Origin: Patescibacteria group bacterium | GTDB lineage: Bacteria > Patescibacteriota > Microgenomatia > UBA1406 > GWC2-37-13 | DNA length: 64,000 nucleotides | NCBI GenBank assembly: GCA_026004455.1 | Contig: BPJE01000003.1 | Span: 62,001-126,000, forward strand | Reading direction: 5' to 3' | Shown: piece after piece, positions 36,995 to 45,441 of the stretch | How positions within the stretch are numbered: position 1 is the stretch's first letter | Layout of the letters: every line of letters starts with the position of its first letter | Program-made: the position numbers and the translations under genes | The notes under the pieces: model-generated | Database searches by the model: none | What the model was told of the DNA's origin: nothing | Seen by the model: only the letters and a program-made list of their open reading frames with translations

Positions 36995-39319
36995 ATGGTT
37001 AAAAAATCTATTGTTTGGTTTGAGGAAGTTGATAAAAATGATGTTGGATTAGTAGGTGGAAAAGGTGCAAATTTAGGTGAGATGGTTAATGCAAGATTTC
37101 CTATACCTTATGGTTTTATTATTACCTCAAAGGCTTATTTTGATTTTATAAAAGAATCAGGATTAAAAAATACAATCAGTCAATTATTAAAAAATTTAAA
37201 TTATGATAATCCTGTTGAACTTCAACAAGTATCAAAAAATATCCAAGAATTAATTAATAAAGCTAGTCTACCACTTGATTTATCAAAACAAATTCTTCAT
37301 TATTATGAAAATTTAATAATAAAAGAAAATCATTATTATAAGCTGAAAAATAATTCGTTTTTTCAAGGTTTACTTAAAATTCGTCATCTTTATAAAATGC
37401 CCCTTGTTGCTATTAGATCCTCGGCTACCGCTGAAGATTTGCCAGGAGCTTCATTTGCAGGACAACAAGAAACTTTTTTAAATATTAGAGGCGAAAATCA
37501 CTTACTTAAAAAAGTCAAAGAATGTTTTGCTTCACTTTTTACTGAAAGAGCGATTTATTATCGCTATCAACAAGGTTTTGATCATGATAAAGTTGGTTTA
37601 GCAGTTGTAGTCCAGCGAATGATTGAGTCAGAAAAATCAGGAATTGCTTTTTCTATTGACCCAATCACTAATGATAAAAATAAAATTGTTATTGAAGCAA
37701 TTTATGGTTTAGGCGAATACATTGTTCAAGGAAAAGTCACTCCTGATCATTATGAAGTTGATAAAAAAAGTTTTTTAATTATTAAAAAAGAAATAAAAAA
37801 TCAATCAGTAAAATTAGTTAAGGCTAATATTGAAAATAAAGAAATAAAACTTGGAAAAGAAGGAAAAAAACAAAAATTAACAGATAATGAAATTATAAAA
37901 ATAGCCTTGTTAGTTTCTGATATTGAAAAGCACTATTACTTTCCTCAAGATATTGAATGGGCAATTGAAAATGATCAGGTTTACATAGTTCAATCCAGAC
38001 CAGTAACGACATTAAATAATTTTAAATTATTAAATCTTGATAAAAAGAATAATCAAACACCAATTCTTGTTGGTTCACCAGCATCGCCAGGAATCGGTAT
38101 TGGACCAGCAAAAATTATTTTTTCACCTAAAGAGATCAATAAAATTAATACTGGTGATGTCCTTATTGCTCCTCAGACGAATCCCGATTATGTGCCGGCA
38201 ATGAAAAAAGCATCAGCAATAGTTACAGAAAAAGGTGGACGAACATCTCATGCAGCAATTGTTTCTCGAGAGTTAGGTATTCCAGCAGTGGTTGGTGCTG
38301 AAGGAGCGACTAAAATTATTAAAAATAATCAAATAATTACTGTTAATGGTTCAACTGGAGAAGTTTTTGAGGGAAAAATAATCATTTCAAACAAAGAAAA
38401 ACAAAATCATAAAAAACTACTTACAGCAACAAAAGTTTATGTTAATTTAGCCCAACCTGAAGAAGCATTAACCGTTTCAAAAAAACATGTTGATGGGGTT
38501 GGTTTACTTAGAGCCGAATTTATAATCGCTGATATTGGTATTCATCCAAAACAATTTATTAAACAAAAAAAAGAACATTTGTTTATTAATCATTTAGCAA
38601 AAAAATTACAACAATTTGTTGGCCCATTTTCTCCAAGACCAGTAGTTTATCGAGCCACTGATTTTAAAACTAATGAATATCGAAATTTAATTGGTGGAAA
38701 AGAATTTGAGCCTCACGAAGAAAATCCGATGCTTGGTTTTAGAGGTGCTTATCGATATATTACTAATCCTGAAGTTTTTAATTTAGAACTTGAAGCTATT
38801 AAAAAAATCTGGTCTAAGGGATATAAAAATTTGCATTTAATGATTCCTTTTATTAGATCACCATGGGAATTAATAAAAATAAAATCAATTATTGAAAAAT
38901 CAGGTCTTTTTAACTATTCTGAATTCAAACTTTGGATTATGGTTGAAGTACCAGCAGTGGCTTTAAATTTAGAAGAATTTTTAAAAATTGGTATTGATGG
39001 AATCTCAATTGGCACAAATGATTTAACAATGATGCTTTTGGGAGTAGATCGCGATAATGAAGCTGTTTCTCAAATATATGATGAAAGAACACCAATTGTT
39101 TTATCAGTGCTTGAATATGTTGTTAAAACTTGCCAAAAATATAATGTTACTTCATCTATTTGTGGTCAAGCTGCCTCTGATTATCCTGAAGTTGTTGAAA
39201 AACTAATCAATGCAGGAATTACCAGTGTTTCTGTATCTCCTGATGCAATTGAGAGAACAAGAGAATTAATTTACAACATTGAAAAAAAACTAATCTCAAA
39301 AAATCTCCAACATAGATAA
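36995..39319 (+). CDS. ppsA: Phosphoenolpyruvate synthase
   Basis: Cytosolic enzyme of 774 residues that makes PEP from pyruvate and ATP (gluconeogenic direction). The ATP-grasp domain starts WFEEVDKNDVGLVGGKGANLGEM and has AIRSSATAEDLPGASFAGQQETFLN. The phosphohistidine swivelling domain has TEKGGRTSHAAIVSRELGIPAVVGAEGA with the catalytic His in TSHAA. The PEP/pyruvate barrel has GLLRAEFI, MVEVPAVALNLEEFLKIGIDGISIGTNDLTMMLLGVDRDN and SICGQA, with the catalytic Cys. All motifs are in place. Pyruvate phosphate dikinase is less likely from length and start. A degenerate enolase follows by 24 bases. Confidence 0.93.
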   Translation: MVKKSIVWFEEVDKNDVGLVGGKGANLGEMVNARFPIPYGFIITSKAYFDFIKESGLKNTISQLLKNLNYDNPVELQQVSKNIQELINKASLPLDLSKQILHYYENLIIKENHYYKLKNNSFFQGLLKIRHLYKMPLVAIRSSATAEDLPGASFAGQQETFLNIRGENHLLKKVKECFASLFTERAIYYRYQQGFDHDKVGLAVVVQRMIESEKSGIAFSIDPITNDKNKIVIEAIYGLGEYIVQGKVTPDHYEVDKKSFLIIKKEIKNQSVKLVKANIENKEIKLGKEGKKQKLTDNEIIKIALLVSDIEKHYYFPQDIEWAIENDQVYIVQSRPVTTLNNFKLLNLDKKNNQTPILVGSPASPGIGIGPAKIIFSPKEINKINTGDVLIAPQTNPDYVPAMKKASAIVTEKGGRTSHAAIVSRELGIPAVVGAEGATKIIKNNQIITVNGSTGEVFEGKIIISNKEKQNHKKLLTATKVYVNLAQPEEALTVSKKHVDGVGLLRAEFIIADIGIHPKQFIKQKKEHLFINHLAKKLQQFVGPFSPRPVVYRATDFKTNEYRNLIGGKEFEPHEENPMLGFRGAYRYITNPEVFNLELEAIKKIWSKGYKNLHLMIPFIRSPWELIKIKSIIEKSGLFNYSEFKLWIMVEVPAVALNLEEFLKIGIDGISIGTNDLTMMLLGVDRDNEAVSQIYDERTPIVLSVLEYVVKTCQKYNVTSSICGQAASDYPEVVEKLINAGITSVSVSPDAIERTRELIYNIEKKLISKNLQHR

Positions 39320-39343
39320 TTTTCTTTATAATAAAATAAAAAT

Positions 39344-40570
39344 ATGAGTAAAATTCAAAATATTATTGCTCGTGAGATTATTAATGCTCGTGGTTATCCA
39401 ACAATTGAAGCTAAGATAATTCTTGATAATCAAAAAGAAGCTTATGCTAGTTTTGCTTCTTTTGAACAATTATTTCCTTATCAAAATAAAGAATTAAAAG
39501 ATAATGATGAAAAAAGATTTAAAGGAGCTGGAGTTCAAACTGCGGTTTACTATATCAATAACCTAATTGCGCCAAAATTAAAAGGAGTTGATATCTCAAA
39601 ACAATATGAAATTGATAATTGGTTAATAAGTGCCGATTCAACTAAAGATAAAAGAAAACTTGGAGTTAATACAATAATGACAATTTCTTTATTAGTGGCT
39701 AAAGCAGCAGCATTAAACAATAATCAACCACTATATTTGTATTTTAATAATTATTTTAATAAAGTTAATAAAACTGATCTAAAACTTGAGTTTTTTCCTT
39801 CACCGATTTTTTCTTTATTAAAAGGCGGTCGCCATGGGCAGATAAATTTGGATTTTCAAGAATTTCAAATTGTTCCCTCTTCATCTTTTACATATTCAAA
39901 AGCTTATGAATTAGGCGTTGATTTATATCATCAAATGCGTCATTTATATAAATTTCAATTTAATTTTAATTTAGATGTTTTATCAGCAATTAAAGAATCA
40001 ATTGAAAAAAAAGAACTAAGATTTGGACATGATGTTTTTCTATCAATTCATTTTGGTGCTAATAATTATTTTTCTGCTAATCATTATTATTTAAAAGATA
40101 AAGATTCAATGTCTTATGTTGAATATTATCAATTTTTAATTGAGCAAATTATTAAAAAATATACTCCTTTAGTAGTAATTGATTGTTTTTCTAATAATGA
40201 TCTTGATAATTGGAAAAAAGCCTATGATAATTTAAATAAAGATACTTATTTATCAATTGATGAGTTAATTTTTTCAAATAAAAATCAGTTAGAAAAATAT
40301 ATTAAAGATAAATTATTTACTACTGTTGTTATTAGACCAAATCAAATTGGAACAATTACAGAAATCGTTTTAATGATTGATTATTTGAAAAAAAATCAAT
40401 TATCTTTTATTATTGCTTCAGAGATTGGGGAGACTAATGAAAATTATTTAGCGGATTTAAGCGTTGGTTTAGATGCTGAGTTTGTTTTATTTGGTCCACC
40501 TGTTCATGGTGAAAATGTGGCTAAATACAATCGATTGCTTGAAATTGAAAAAGAGCTAATAAAGAAATAG
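39344..40570 (+). CDS. Degenerate enolase homologue, probably not an enolase
   Basis: Protein of 408 residues aligning with enolase along its length: IIAREIINARGYPTIEAKI, LGVNTIMTISLLVAKAAALNNNQPLY, GGRHGQINLDFQEFQI, NQIGTITE, GETNENYLADLSVG, VAKYNRLLEIE. Many active-site positions have changed. The Ser loop (SGASTG) is lost; the VGDEGG segment with the catalytic Glu is gone; the Mg ligand Asp in MDCAASE is His; the Glu ligand is Asp; the catalytic Lys in IKFNQ is Arg; the SHRSGE loop reads ASEIGE; and the final Lys is Leu. It is probably a pseudoenzyme or has a new activity. A TATAAT at 39327-39332 precedes it. Confidence 0.8.
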   Translation: MSKIQNIIAREIINARGYPTIEAKIILDNQKEAYASFASFEQLFPYQNKELKDNDEKRFKGAGVQTAVYYINNLIAPKLKGVDISKQYEIDNWLISADSTKDKRKLGVNTIMTISLLVAKAAALNNNQPLYLYFNNYFNKVNKTDLKLEFFPSPIFSLLKGGRHGQINLDFQEFQIVPSSSFTYSKAYELGVDLYHQMRHLYKFQFNFNLDVLSAIKESIEKKELRFGHDVFLSIHFGANNYFSANHYYLKDKDSMSYVEYYQFLIEQIIKKYTPLVVIDCFSNNDLDNWKKAYDNLNKDTYLSIDELIFSNKNQLEKYIKDKLFTTVVIRPNQIGTITEIVLMIDYLKKNQLSFIIASEIGETNENYLADLSVGLDAEFVLFGPPVHGENVAKYNRLLEIEKELIKK

Positions 40571-40616: not shown

Positions 40617-41189
40617 ATGATTGGGAAAATTAAAGGAAAATTAGTTGAAGTCTCAGGAAATATTGGTTTAGTTGAAACTGCTAGTGGTGTTTTTTACAAT
40701 ATTTTTCTTACACCTTCAACTTTATCAAAAAACCAATTAAATAATGAAAATTTTGAAGTTTATACCTATCTTCATGTTAAAGAAGATGCAATGATTCTTT
40801 TTGGATTTGAAACAAAAAATGAATATGATATTTTTTAAATTATTATTAACAGTCTCAGGTGTTGGTCCAAAAACTGCTTTTTCAATTATCTCTTTTATTA
40901 AAACTCCAGACCTAATAGAAGCAATTAAAAAAAATGATGTTGATATACTAACAGAAGTTCCTGGATTAGGTAAAAAAAACAGCGATGAAAATTATTTTAG
41001 AGTTGTCTTCAAAAATAAATGATGACTTTGAATTAAAAAATGTAATTTTATCAAATGATGATAAAATAGTAGTTGATGCATTAGTATCTTTGGGTTTTAA
41101 AGTTAATGAAGCTAAAAAAATAATTAATGATATTCCTAAAAACTTGTCAGTTGAGGAAAAAAATTACTTTTGCTTTAAAAAAAAATTAA
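40617..41189 (+). pseudogene. ruvA: Holliday junction helicase subunit RuvA, broken by three +1 homopolymer insertions
   Basis: Three successive frames together give one RuvA of about 190 residues: domain I MIGKIKGKLVEVSGNIGLVETASGVFYNI and EDAMILFGF; domain II LLLTVSGVGPKTAFSIIS and EVPGLGKKTAMKIILELSSKI (helix-hairpin-helix motifs); and domain III VVDALVSLGFKVNEAKKII. Reading must skip one base in T6 at 40831-40836 (restoring NEYDIFKLLLTVSG), in A8 at 40972-40979 (GKKTAMKII), and probably in A7 at 41157-41163 (VEEKITFALKKN, then stop at 41189). RuvA targets RuvB to Holliday junctions. Either the sequence carries errors, or the gene is decayed, or slippage restores it. Confidence 0.85.
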
Positions 41190-41208
41190 TAAAAAATAAA
41201 ACATAAAT

Positions 41209-41221: not shown

Positions 41222-42185
41222 ATGAAGTCTAACAATGAAGAAAATCTTCGACCAAAGTTTTTAAAAAGACTATATTGGTCAAAAAAATATTGTCAAAACT
41301 TTAAAACTTTTTATTGACGCGGTAAAAAAAAGAGGAAAACCATCTGAGCATATCTTATTTTTTGGTCCTCCAGGAATTGGAAAAACAACTCTTTCTTATA
41401 TTGTTGCCAATGAGCTTAATGGAGATATAAAAATTACCTCAGGAGCAACAATTACAAAAACTGGTGATTTAGCAGCAATACTGACTAATTTAAAAGATAA
41501 TGACGTTTTGTTTATTGATGAAATTCATCGTTTGCCAAAATCAGTAGAAGAGATGCTTTATCCTGTTTTGGAAGAGTATGCATTGGATATTATTATTGGT
41601 AAAGGTCCCTCAGCAAGAACTGTTAGGCTTAATGTGCCTCGAATTACAATAATTGGAGCAACAACAAAATTAGCCTTACTTTCTGCTCCTTTAAGAGATA
41701 GGTTTGGATTAATACTAAGATTAGACTATTATAGCGTTAATGAATTAAAAGAAATTATTAAAAGATCAGCAGCAATTTTAAAAATACCAATTACTGATAA
41801 AGCGGCTTATGAGATTGCTTTACGATCAAGAAAAACACCAAGAATAGCCAATAGAATTTTAAAACGAGCAAGAGATATTTTAGAGGTTGATAAACATCAA
41901 AAGATTGATGAGGCTTTATTAGAAAAATTATTTAAACTACTAGAAATAGATGAATTAGGATTAGTAGATATTGATAAAGATTACCTAAAAGTTTTATCAG
42001 AAAAATTTAATAATCAACCAGTTGGCGTTGAAACAATTGCTTCAGCTTTATCTGAGGATGTAAAAACAGTTGAAGAATTTATTGAACCATATTTACTTCA
42101 AATTGGTTTTATAAAAAAAACTAGTCGCGGTCGTCAACTAACTCAAAAAGCTCTTAACCATTTAAAAATGTCTTTACCTTTTTAA
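41222..42185 (+). pseudogene. ruvB: Holliday junction helicase subunit RuvB, broken by one +1 homopolymer insertion
   Basis: From the ATG at 41222 the protein reads MKSNNEENLRPKFLK and then runs into a wrong frame and a stop. Dropping one A from A5 at 41263-41267 gives DYIGQKNIVKTLKLFIDAVKKRGKPSEHILFFGPPGIGKTTLSYIVANEL, a normal RuvB start with Walker A. The rest is intact to 42185: FIDEIHRLPKSVEEMLYPVLEEY (Walker B), GATTKLALLSAPLRDRFG (sensor 1 and Arg finger) and the winged helix QIGFIKKTSRGRQLT. Corrected length is about 320 residues. RuvB is the hexameric motor for branch migration. It is the partner of the equally broken ruvA. Confidence 0.88.
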
Positions 42186-42343: not shown

Positions 42344-42418
42344 GGGCCTATAGCTCAATTGGCTTAGAGCACCCGCTTTGCACGCGGGAGGTTAAGGGTT
42401 CGAGTCCCTTTAGGTCCA
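42344..42418 (+). tRNA. tRNA-Ala (anticodon TGC)
   Basis: Acceptor GGGCCTA/TAGGTCC, D arm GCTC...GAGC, anticodon stem CCCGC/GCGGG with loop TTTGCAC, T arm AAGGG-TTCGAGT-CCCTT, discriminator A. CCA is not encoded. It precedes the 23S gene, as tRNA-Ala often does in rRNA operons, but no 16S gene lies upstream. Confidence 0.95.
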
Positions 42419-42419
42419 C

Positions 42420-42432
42420 AAGCACTTTAAAA
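42420..42432 (+). promoter_or_regulatory. boxA-like antitermination sequence
   Basis: AAGCACTTTAAAA between tRNA-Ala and 23S resembles boxA (GCTCTTTAACA) at the position it takes in rRNA spacers, where Nus factors bind. Confidence 0.4.
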
Positions 42433-42607
42433 GTTTGGTATTGAACAAAGAAAGATAGGAGAGCGCTAAGGCTAACGGTGGATGCCTTGGCGGATTGGGC
42501 CGATGAAGGACGCGTGCTAGAGCGCGATATCAACGGTGAGTTCTCAAGCAAACGCTATTAGCCGTTGGTTTCCGAATGGGGAAACCCGCTCTGGTGTTAA
42601 GCCGGAG

Positions 42608-42629
42608 CGCCCGCCGTTTTAGGCGGGCG
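42608..42629 (+). repeat. GTTTTA-loop hairpin 1 in 23S rRNA
   Basis: Perfect 8-bp stem CGCCCGCC/GGCGGGCG around loop GTTTTA, in the variable helix before CCGGGGAACTGAAACATC. Confidence 0.8.
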
Positions 42630-42681
42630 GGAACCCGGGGAACTGAAACATCTTAGTACCCGGAGGAAGAGAAATCAATAT

Positions 42682-42703
42682 TACCCGTCGTTTTAGGCGG
42701 GTA
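42682..42703 (+). repeat. GTTTTA-loop hairpin 2 in 23S rRNA (insertion)
   Basis: TACCCGTC/GGCGGGTA around GTTTTA. It stands between GAAATCAA and GAGATTC, where the E. coli rRNA, from memory, has only about two bases, so it is an inserted hairpin. Confidence 0.8.
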
Positions 42704-42714
42704 GAGATTCTGTA

Positions 42715-42768
<54 letters not shown>

Positions 42769-43724
42769 GCGGGACTTATCATAACAAGATGTTTTTGATA
42801 GGAGAATGTTTTGGAAAAAACAGCCAAAGAAGGTGAAAGCCCTGTATCCGAAATCAAAAACATCTTAAGATAAGATTCCCAAGTACCACGGGACACGGGA
42901 AACCCTGTGGGAAGCTGGGGAGGTCACTCTCCAAGGCTAAATACCCAATCCGACCGATAGTGAACCAGTACCGTGAGGGAAAGGTGAAAAGTCCCCCGTT
43001 GAGGGGAGTGAAATAGAACCTGAAACCGTTAGCTAACAAGCAGTGGGAGCCCGCCTAATTCGGCGGGTGACCGCGTGCCTATTGAAGAATGAGCCAGCGA
43101 GTTTTCGGTTAGTGCAAGCTTAATTCCGCAGGGCGGAAGTAGGCGTAGCGAAAGCGAGTCTGAATAAGGCGCATGCACATCGGCAACGATGTGTTAGTAC
43201 TAGCCGAAAGACCCGAAACCGGGTGATCTAACCATGGGCAGGGTGAACTTCGACGAAAATCGAAGGGAGGCCCGCACCCGTTACTGACGAAATAGTATGG
43301 GACGACCTGTGGTTAGGGGTGAAACGCTAAACGAACCCGGAGATAGCTGGTTCTCCCCGAGATATATTTAGGTATAGCCTCTTTGAGTAGCAAAGGGGGG
43401 TAGAGCTACTGGATATCTGCAGGAGCCATTAGGTGACTGTAGATAACCAAACTCCGAATACCCTTTGTGAAATCAAAGGGAGTCGGTCATGCCGGGATAA
43501 GCTGGTGTGGCGAGAGGGAAACAACCCAGATCTCCAACTAAGGCTCTTAAATGATTCCTAAGTGGTAAAGGTCGTTTAATTTCCAAGACAGCAGGGAGGT
43601 TGGCTTAGAGGCAGCCATCCTTTAAAGAGTGCGTAACAGCTCACCTGAATATTTCCGATGCATATCGGAATGGAGATTAAGCGCCAAAAATGAACGGATC
43701 TTAAGGAATCTGCCGAAGTTGAGG

Positions 43725-43742
43725 CCCGCTGTTTTAGGCGGG
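43725..43742 (+). repeat. GTTTTA-loop hairpin 4 in 23S rRNA
   Basis: CCCGCT/GGCGGG around GTTTTA, before GTAGGGGAGCGTTC. The E. coli helix here has a different loop. Confidence 0.75.
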
Positions 43743-44673
43743 GGTAGGGGAGCGTTCTTGTTGCGTTGAAGCTCAGATGTGAGTCTGGGTGGAGCGGCAA
43801 GAAGCGAGAATGCTGGCATGAGTAGCGATTCTCCCGTCGAGAAAACGGGACGCCGGAAGCCCAAGGTTTCCTTAGCAATGTTAATCAGCTAAGGGTTAGT
43901 CGAGGCCTAACCCTAAACCACTTCGGGTTTAGGGGATGGATAAGCGGTTAATATTCCGCTACCTCTGATAAAGCGTTATTACTTAATTAGTGCGAGATTT
44001 GAAGATTCCAGCTTTGCTGCCCTTATGGGTTAAGCAAAGTCTAAACCTCAAGTCAGCTTTGCTGGCAAGAGGTGATGGGGACTCTGATTTTATCAGAGGA
44101 CTGGAAGTCTTTAAATCTCCGGGAAAAGCTAATTTAAGGAGTTTTATCAGAGCTCGTACCGCAAACCGACACAGGTGGGTTGGTGGAGTACACCGAGGCG
44201 TTCGGGAAAGAGTGGTTTAAGGAACTCGGCAAAAAAGCTAGGCGTAACCTTTGGGAGAAGCCTTGCCTCCAGTTGTCGGGGCCGCAGCTAAAGTTTGCCA
44301 ACCGACTGTTTATCAAAAACACAGCTCCCTGCTAACCTGAAAAAGGGATGTATAGGGGGTGAAGCCTGACCAGTGCCGGTAGGTTAAGCGCTGGGGTTGA
44401 TTTCCGATCTTTTAATCGGAATGAGGCTCTAGTGTAAGCCCTGGTAAACGTCAGCCCTAACCCTGAGGGTTCTAAGGTAGCGTAATCCCTTGTCGGGTAA
44501 GTTCCGACCTGCATGAAAGGCCCAACGAGTTGGCAACTGTCTTAAACCACTCCTCGGCGAAATTGAAATGGCTGTGAAGATGCGGCCTACTTACACCAGG
44601 ACAAACAGACCCCGGGAGCTTTACTGGATCCAGATATTGGTGTTGATGCAGTAACTGTTTAGCGTAGGAGGGA

Positions 44674-44691
44674 CCTACCGTTTTAGGTAGG
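44674..44691 (+). repeat. GTTTTA-loop hairpin 5 in 23S rRNA
   Basis: Perfect CCTACC/GGTAGG stem around GTTTTA. The stem sequence differs from the others but stays complementary. Confidence 0.8.
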
Positions 44692-44947
44692 GCCAATGAA
44701 ACACCTCTCTTTACTGTATTAACGCCTAACTCCAACTTTTTGGGGGACAGTGTTTGGTGGCCAGTTTAACTGGGACGGTTGCCTCCTAAAGAGTAACGGA
44801 GGCGTACAAAGGTCGGCTTGCGCCGGATGGAAATCGGCGTGTAAGCGCAAGGGTATAAGCCGGCTTGACTGCGAGGCTGACCAGCCGAGCAGAGTCGAAA
44901 GACGGTCCTAGTGATCCTCGATCCCGTTGTGATTGCGGGACGGGCTT

Positions 44948-44980
<33 letters not shown>

Positions 44981-45098
44981 AGTCGGACCCGAGAGTTCAT
45001 ATCGACGGTCCGGTTCGGCACCTCGATGTCGGCTCATCCCATCCTGGAGCTGGAGCAGGTTCCAAGGGTCGGGCTGTTCGCCCGTTAAAGGGGTACGT

Positions 45099-45131
<33 letters not shown>

Positions 45132-45441
45132 ACTCTATCCGGTGTAAGCGTTTTGACTCTTGAGGGGGGACTTTCCTAGTACGAGAGGACCGGAAAGTGG
45201 AGATCCCTGGTGTACCGGTTGTTCCAAAAGAGCAGCGCCGGGTAGCTATATCTCTAACTGATAAGCACTGAAAGCATCTAAAGTGTGAAGCAGACCCCAA
45301 GATTAGGAATCCATCCGCCTTTAGGCGGGGCAGCCATCCCGTAGATTACGGGATTAATAGGCCTCAGGTGTATGCCGAGAGGTACTAATTGGCGACTCTC
45401 CCATCATTTTTATTATCAAAATCTATAAAATCTTCTTTTGT

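Follow-up and report, generated by a model that had tools for sequence, protein, structure and literature searches.

A retained pseudoenolase beside ppsA in a Patescibacteria genome and recurrent loss of the enolase active site across Microgenomatia

An enolase-like gene downstream of ppsA

The window analysed here is a 64,000-nucleotide stretch from the genome (895 kb, 5 contigs) of a Ca. Roizmanbacteria relative (Patescibacteria, Microgenomatia). In it, the gene for phosphoenolpyruvate synthase is followed by an open reading frame for an enolase-type protein from which most of the active site has been lost. The features of this locus are listed below in window coordinates, with residues in yeast numbering; the motifs from the Ser loop to the SHRSGET loop were placed by alignment.

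36995 to 39319, plus strand: ppsA, phosphoenolpyruvate synthase (pyruvate, water dikinase), 774 amino acids; upstream neighbour, conserved across the class
39320 to 39343, plus strand: 24-base gap between ppsA and the pseudoenolase gene, which lie on the same strand
39344 to 40570, plus strand: pseudoenolase of lineage A, 408 amino acids, without E211 and its loop, D246, E295, K345, H373, R374 and K396
39455 to 39487, plus strand: remnant of the Ser loop, ASFEQLFPYQN, replacing PSGASTG..E
39824 to 39853, plus strand: GGRHGQINLD, with the H159 equivalent kept (GGKHANNNLD in intact copies)
39944 to 39967, plus strand: LYKFQFNF, site at which the 15-residue VGDEGG loop is deleted
40043 to 40060, plus strand: SIHFGA, Mg ligand D246 changed to His
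40172 to 40189, plus strand: VVIDCF, Mg ligand E295 changed to Ile (LLEDPL in intact relatives)
40415 to 40435, plus strand: ASEIGET, replacing the lost SHRSGET loop
40505 to 40558, plus strand: C-terminal dimer helix HGENVAKYNRLLEIEKEL, retained

The window protein carries both enolase domains in Pfam (Enolase_N, E = 9e-35; Enolase_C, E = 6e-38), and its top matches among PDB sequences are enolases only, which bears out the enolase framework recognised in the initial annotation. Structure prediction and superposition, the check suggested there, gave a confident full-length enolase fold: the AlphaFold2 model has a pLDDT of 91.5 and a pTM of 0.91, and Foldseek matched it to solved enolases with a TM-score of ~0.9 at ~30% identity. 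With the TIGR01060 eno model the protein scores 273.1 bits, under the 300-bit equivalog cut-off.

Active-site residues of the window protein

Residue assignments were made from alignments of the window protein with ~90 relatives and E. coli enolase. Of ten catalytic, metal and ligand residues that were scored, seven are lost and H159, E168 and D320 alone are left; S39 is also kept. The catalytic pair is gone, E211 together with its loop and K345 by replacement with Arg, and of the Mg ligands D246, E295 and D320 only the last is found, so that the set of three acidic metal ligands that other enolase-superfamily enzymes have at the ends of barrel strands is likewise short of two. S372-H-R-S375 reads A-S-E-I, and K396 is replaced by Leu. 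The catalytic motif has thus been lost within an intact reading frame.

Each change that had been noticed by eye (the Ser loop, the VGDEGG glutamate, Asp to His, Lys to Arg, the SHRSGE loop and the final Lys) proved real in the alignments, with two corrections. The glutamate is gone as described, but its loop is not just altered: all 15 residues are deleted. Similarly, the Mg ligand reported as changed is indeed D246H, but a second one, E295I, had been overlooked. No alignment restored the metal ligands or the Lys/Glu pair. A shifted alignment in which D280 would replace E295 was rejected, as the flanks align without gaps to LLEDPL of the intact copies. A frameshifted or misassembled enolase was also ruled out, the frame being open and the losses common to 19 genomes. 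The gene occurs in 19 genomes of the genus, all of which have lost most of these positions, so the losses are not attributable to chance or sequencing error.

A second enolase and the descent of the window gene

A search for a second, intact enolase, also proposed in the initial annotation, was successful. The host genome encodes one at G000:C1:391274-392548 that retains 13 of 13 scored residues, scores 500.7 bits with TIGR01060 and lies between an rpe-like gene (assigned by eye from its translation) and the gene for 2,3-bisphosphoglycerate-dependent phosphoglycerate mutase (gpmA). The active-type paralogue expected beside an enolase-family pseudoenzyme is therefore present in the same genome.

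Across 57 relatives the enolases fall into two lineages, designated A, which includes the window gene, and B, which is the normal bacterial enolase and is located elsewhere in the genome. Many families of the class have lineage A as their only enolase, its active site intact and its gene in the order ppsA-eno, after which the outgroups have gpmI (cofactor-independent phosphoglycerate mutase). In the tree the lineage-A sequences of the genus cluster with those of related families that have a single, intact enolase, apart from lineage B. On the sequence evidence, the window gene is the native (ancestral) Microgenomatia enolase of the ppsA cluster. A recent duplication of the host's own enolase was excluded: identity between A and B is only ~35%, and the two fall in separate lineages. 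In family f1, the sole enolases of lineage A (e.g. L012, L019 and L021) have Ala at S39 and keep the other scored residues; Ala at this position appears to be tolerated there.

Recurrent loss of the active site in lineage A

Breakage was counted over the ten scored residues, and both the counts and the lineage-A tree omit G024, whose contig ends inside the gene, and the frameshifted G089. Where lineage A is the sole enolase found, 25 of 26 genomes have it intact; where enolase B is also present, 37 of 45 have it broken (Fisher p ~1e-11, a value that ignores ancestry). On the best tree this corresponds to eight independent losses, at least four of which are forced by well-supported branches. 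Among independent pairs none ran in the opposite direction, with only four supported, a number at which a sign test cannot reach significance. This recurrent, class-wide loss is the most interesting part of the finding.

The one broken copy among the 26 genomes with A alone, that of G016, comes from a genome that is 76% complete, and B occurs in its sister genomes. Intact copies beside B number eight, those of five family f2 genomes, G036, G073 and G079; the f2 copies and that of G036 have SHRS changed to SHRL, and in G073 and G079 enolase B may be contamination or is fragmentary. When the remaining class was sampled, families f10, f18 and f31 proved to hold broken copies too, and outside the order G195 and G225 have a broken A with no enolase B detected.

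In family f10 (L193, L194, L195, L212 and L223) the altered pocket is shared (E211 to Thr, D246 to Asn or Gln, D320 to Cys, R374 to Ser) and conserved, with THETNECKSHSSK and close variants in five genomes, and possibly serves a new ligand or reaction. Since this pocket is changed yet conserved, unlike that in the genus of the window, the fates of broken A copies may differ between families. The f10 genes adjoin sugar-phosphate isomerase-like and phosphomannomutase-like genes (by eye) and no ppsA.

Two other copies depart from the usual form. In G089 (C80, L160) the lineage-A enolase is split into two open reading frames of 362 and 100 residues, likely a true pseudogene or an assembly error. 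In G054 (C2, L054 2845-4797) a broken A bears a C-terminal extension (~230 residues) with a high content of Pro, Thr, Ala and Val; ppsA was not detected in that genome.

Linkage to ppsA

The upstream gene product passes the TIGR01418 model for PEP synthase with 889 bits (cut-off 740), and the position of the pseudoenolase gene 24 bases after it, as first described, extends to a class-wide association. Coordinates from the 83 genomes of the order place ppsA immediately 5' of lineage A, in the same orientation, for each of the 65 lineage-A genes, and genomes of the order without ppsA are also without lineage A. The short gap, conserved across genomes, suggests that ppsA and the pseudoenolase gene are co-transcribed.

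The association is not absolute in either direction. ppsA has been kept and A lost in genus g13 (including G031), G064, G066 and G027; in G031 (L126 3351-7480) ppsA is followed after 227 bases by ruvA and then ruvB, a clean deletion of A. Lineage A is thus not always needed, being absent in G031, G064 and G066 despite the retention of ppsA. Conversely, several broken A copies of families f10 and f18 persist in near-complete genomes without ppsA, so PpsA cannot be the sole partner, and an exclusive dependence of the pseudoenolase on PpsA is weakened. The direction in which PpsA works was ruled out as the reason for retention: pyruvate kinase is present in the host and was not detected in several members of the genus, and genomes of both kinds keep the pseudoenolase.

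Selective loss of constraint in the catalytic pocket

The reading frame of A is open in all 19 members of the genus that carry it. Broken A copies give a dN/dS of 0.02-0.06 for most pairs in which it could be measured, close to what active B gives when the same genomes are compared; the precise figures are uncertain, since dS approaches or passes saturation (>1 in most pairs). The pair nearest to the host (G000 and G001) gives 0.27 for A and 0.15 for B. These values indicate purifying selection on the broken copies. Rates of A are raised, most strongly in the G003 subclade. In the G013 subclade, which has another type of B, the stem of A measures 1.05, compared with 0.19 for PpsA, and is followed by slow evolution.

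Constraint is unevenly distributed along the protein. Mean column entropy of the old pocket is 0.34 bits in intact A. Among the genus's broken copies it reaches 1.42 bits (1.76 bits with deleted columns excluded), with the rest of the protein at 1.36 bits. The dimer elements, defined from the S. aureus enolase structure (PMC4667285), have entropies of 0.50 bits (first strand) and 0.61 bits (C-terminal helix). In each of the three genus subclades, random columns are conserved at least as well as the pocket, whereas hardly any set of random columns equals the dimer elements, which remain the best conserved part of the protein. The helix motif E..KYNR..I is present in intact and nearly all broken copies, and the helix may be conserved for reasons of fold. 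The octamer interface was considered as a conserved contact and rejected, being special in neither broken nor intact copies.

These comparisons support a selective loss of the catalytic site, with the framework retained, in place of the random decay that the initial annotation had already argued against. The pseudoenzyme reading made there is likewise supported by the combination of lost catalytic residues and low dN/dS with an intact enolase in the same genome. The observation is confirmed as real, and it is stronger than first stated.

Possible roles of the pseudoenolase

Building on the descent, losses, retention and ppsA linkage observed above, we infer a partner and a function, and among the classes of explanation we favour a regulatory or partner role. 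Native A has lost its catalytic apparatus but is kept full-length under purifying selection, its dimer elements preserved. Enolase B would have taken over catalysis, leaving native A with a second job that it already had. The product would be a non-catalytic enolase-type dimer, made together with PpsA and acting through protein contacts, possibly as a scaffold or as a regulatory subunit in the PEP node. We give an even chance to the proposal that the pseudoenolase is such a retained dimer, acting without catalysis through protein contacts. In the genus, the short gap and the conservation of gene order point to PpsA as its likeliest candidate partner. For the class, it is tentatively proposed, at slightly under even chances, that the native Microgenomatia enolase carries an old non-catalytic task on its dimeric framework, and that with each takeover by a second enolase selection on the active site collapses while the framework is kept, which would give rise to parallel pseudoenolases.

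The main rival, which we consider unlikely, holds that A forms mixed dimers or higher assemblies with active B and modulates its activity, stability or location. Preservation of the dimer elements in A would suit such assemblies, as would the breakage of A mostly where B is present and the burst on the A stem, followed by slow evolution, in the subclade with a different B type. The two proteins are, however, only distantly similar, and the charges at Ec22 and Ec411, which we take from yeast enolase to be dimer salt-bridge positions, pair inconsistently between A and B of one genome; the broken copies of G195 and G225, moreover, have no detected B to pair with. A second rival is ligand sensing, in which the old pocket would bind PEP, 2-PG or another phospho-compound and signal to PpsA. 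The adjoining ppsA gene is consistent with such a sensor, and the host's subclade shows no variation at S39, H159, D320 or position 373 (Ser) and very little at E168. Yet the phosphate and carboxylate binders R374, S375, K345 and K396 are lost or replaced in the window protein, and each subclade of the genus keeps a different subset of pocket residues. The loss of pocket constraint with the framework kept argues against a shared ligand-binding role in the genus, and a phospho-compound in the old pocket, one of the roles initially suggested, is thereby disfavoured; we regard a sensor as improbable.

Slightly more improbable still is relaxed decay, with A redundant, on its way out and held for now by its position in the operon. 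Deletion of A in several B-bearing lineages (genus g13, G064 and G066), its frameshift in G089 and its raised rates are what decay would produce, but the frames open throughout the genus, a dN/dS far below 1 and like that of the active copy, the confinement of lost constraint to the pocket and not the dimer elements, and the small genomes of the genus (0.5-1.2 Mb) all speak against it. Enolase has RNA-degradosome and surface roles in other bacteria (see also PMC4667285), and the window protein's top fold match, 5ohg, shows enolase in complex with RNase E; the rank of that entry among near-identical enolase scores is, however, uninformative on RNase E binding, and a moonlighting role of this kind, also raised initially, seems very improbable. 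The preferred reading remains that of a non-catalytic dimer acting through its contacts.

Enolase is a classic moonlighting protein, and disentangling its second roles from catalysis is difficult. Repeated catalytic loss in very small genomes provides natural dead variants with matched intact relatives, which make a non-catalytic role of enolase, and the surface responsible, directly testable; if the proposal holds, these separation-of-function variants would reveal where on the surface the hidden task resides. Enolase counts in Patescibacteria that are based on family score may mislead, as some copies are without the residues for glycolysis.

Comparison with known enolases and pseudoenzymes

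The window protein shares with bacterial enolases (TIGR01060) the full fold, domain order and dimer elements, as well as a common origin with an active enolase that in related families remains the only one, and differs from them in its sub-threshold score and the loss of seven of ten scored residues. Divergent enolases of eukaryotes, such as plant ENO3, are also divergent paralogues beside an active enolase, but have a different origin and no linkage to ppsA. NCBIfam NF006223 (PRK08350) is likewise an enolase-related protein of unknown function; with 64.5 bits against a cut-off of 624, the window protein falls outside that family. As in the pseudoenzymes of metabolic enzyme families (reviewed in PMC10211241), the fold is kept, the catalytic motif lost and an active paralogue present in the cell, whereas recurrent loss within one bacterial class, tracking a distantly related second enolase, sets the present case apart. 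Jaffe et al. 2020 (PMC7304191), in the passages found, place Microgenomates enolases in more than one cluster and describe lower glycolysis as patchy, and those passages do not mention loss of catalytic residues. Within the open literature searched, no bacterial pseudoenolase was found.

Genes downstream of the pseudoenolase

Downstream in the window, ruvA (40617-41206) is split over three frames and ruvB (41222-42185) over two. The breaks look like indels of one base within A or T homopolymers and are either assembly errors in these runs or real decay; the copies in relatives are intact. A tRNA gene and then a complete 23S rRNA gene (42454-45407) occupy 42344-45407. Rfam found no 16S or 5S rRNA in the whole 64 kb window, so the rRNA genes appear to be unlinked.
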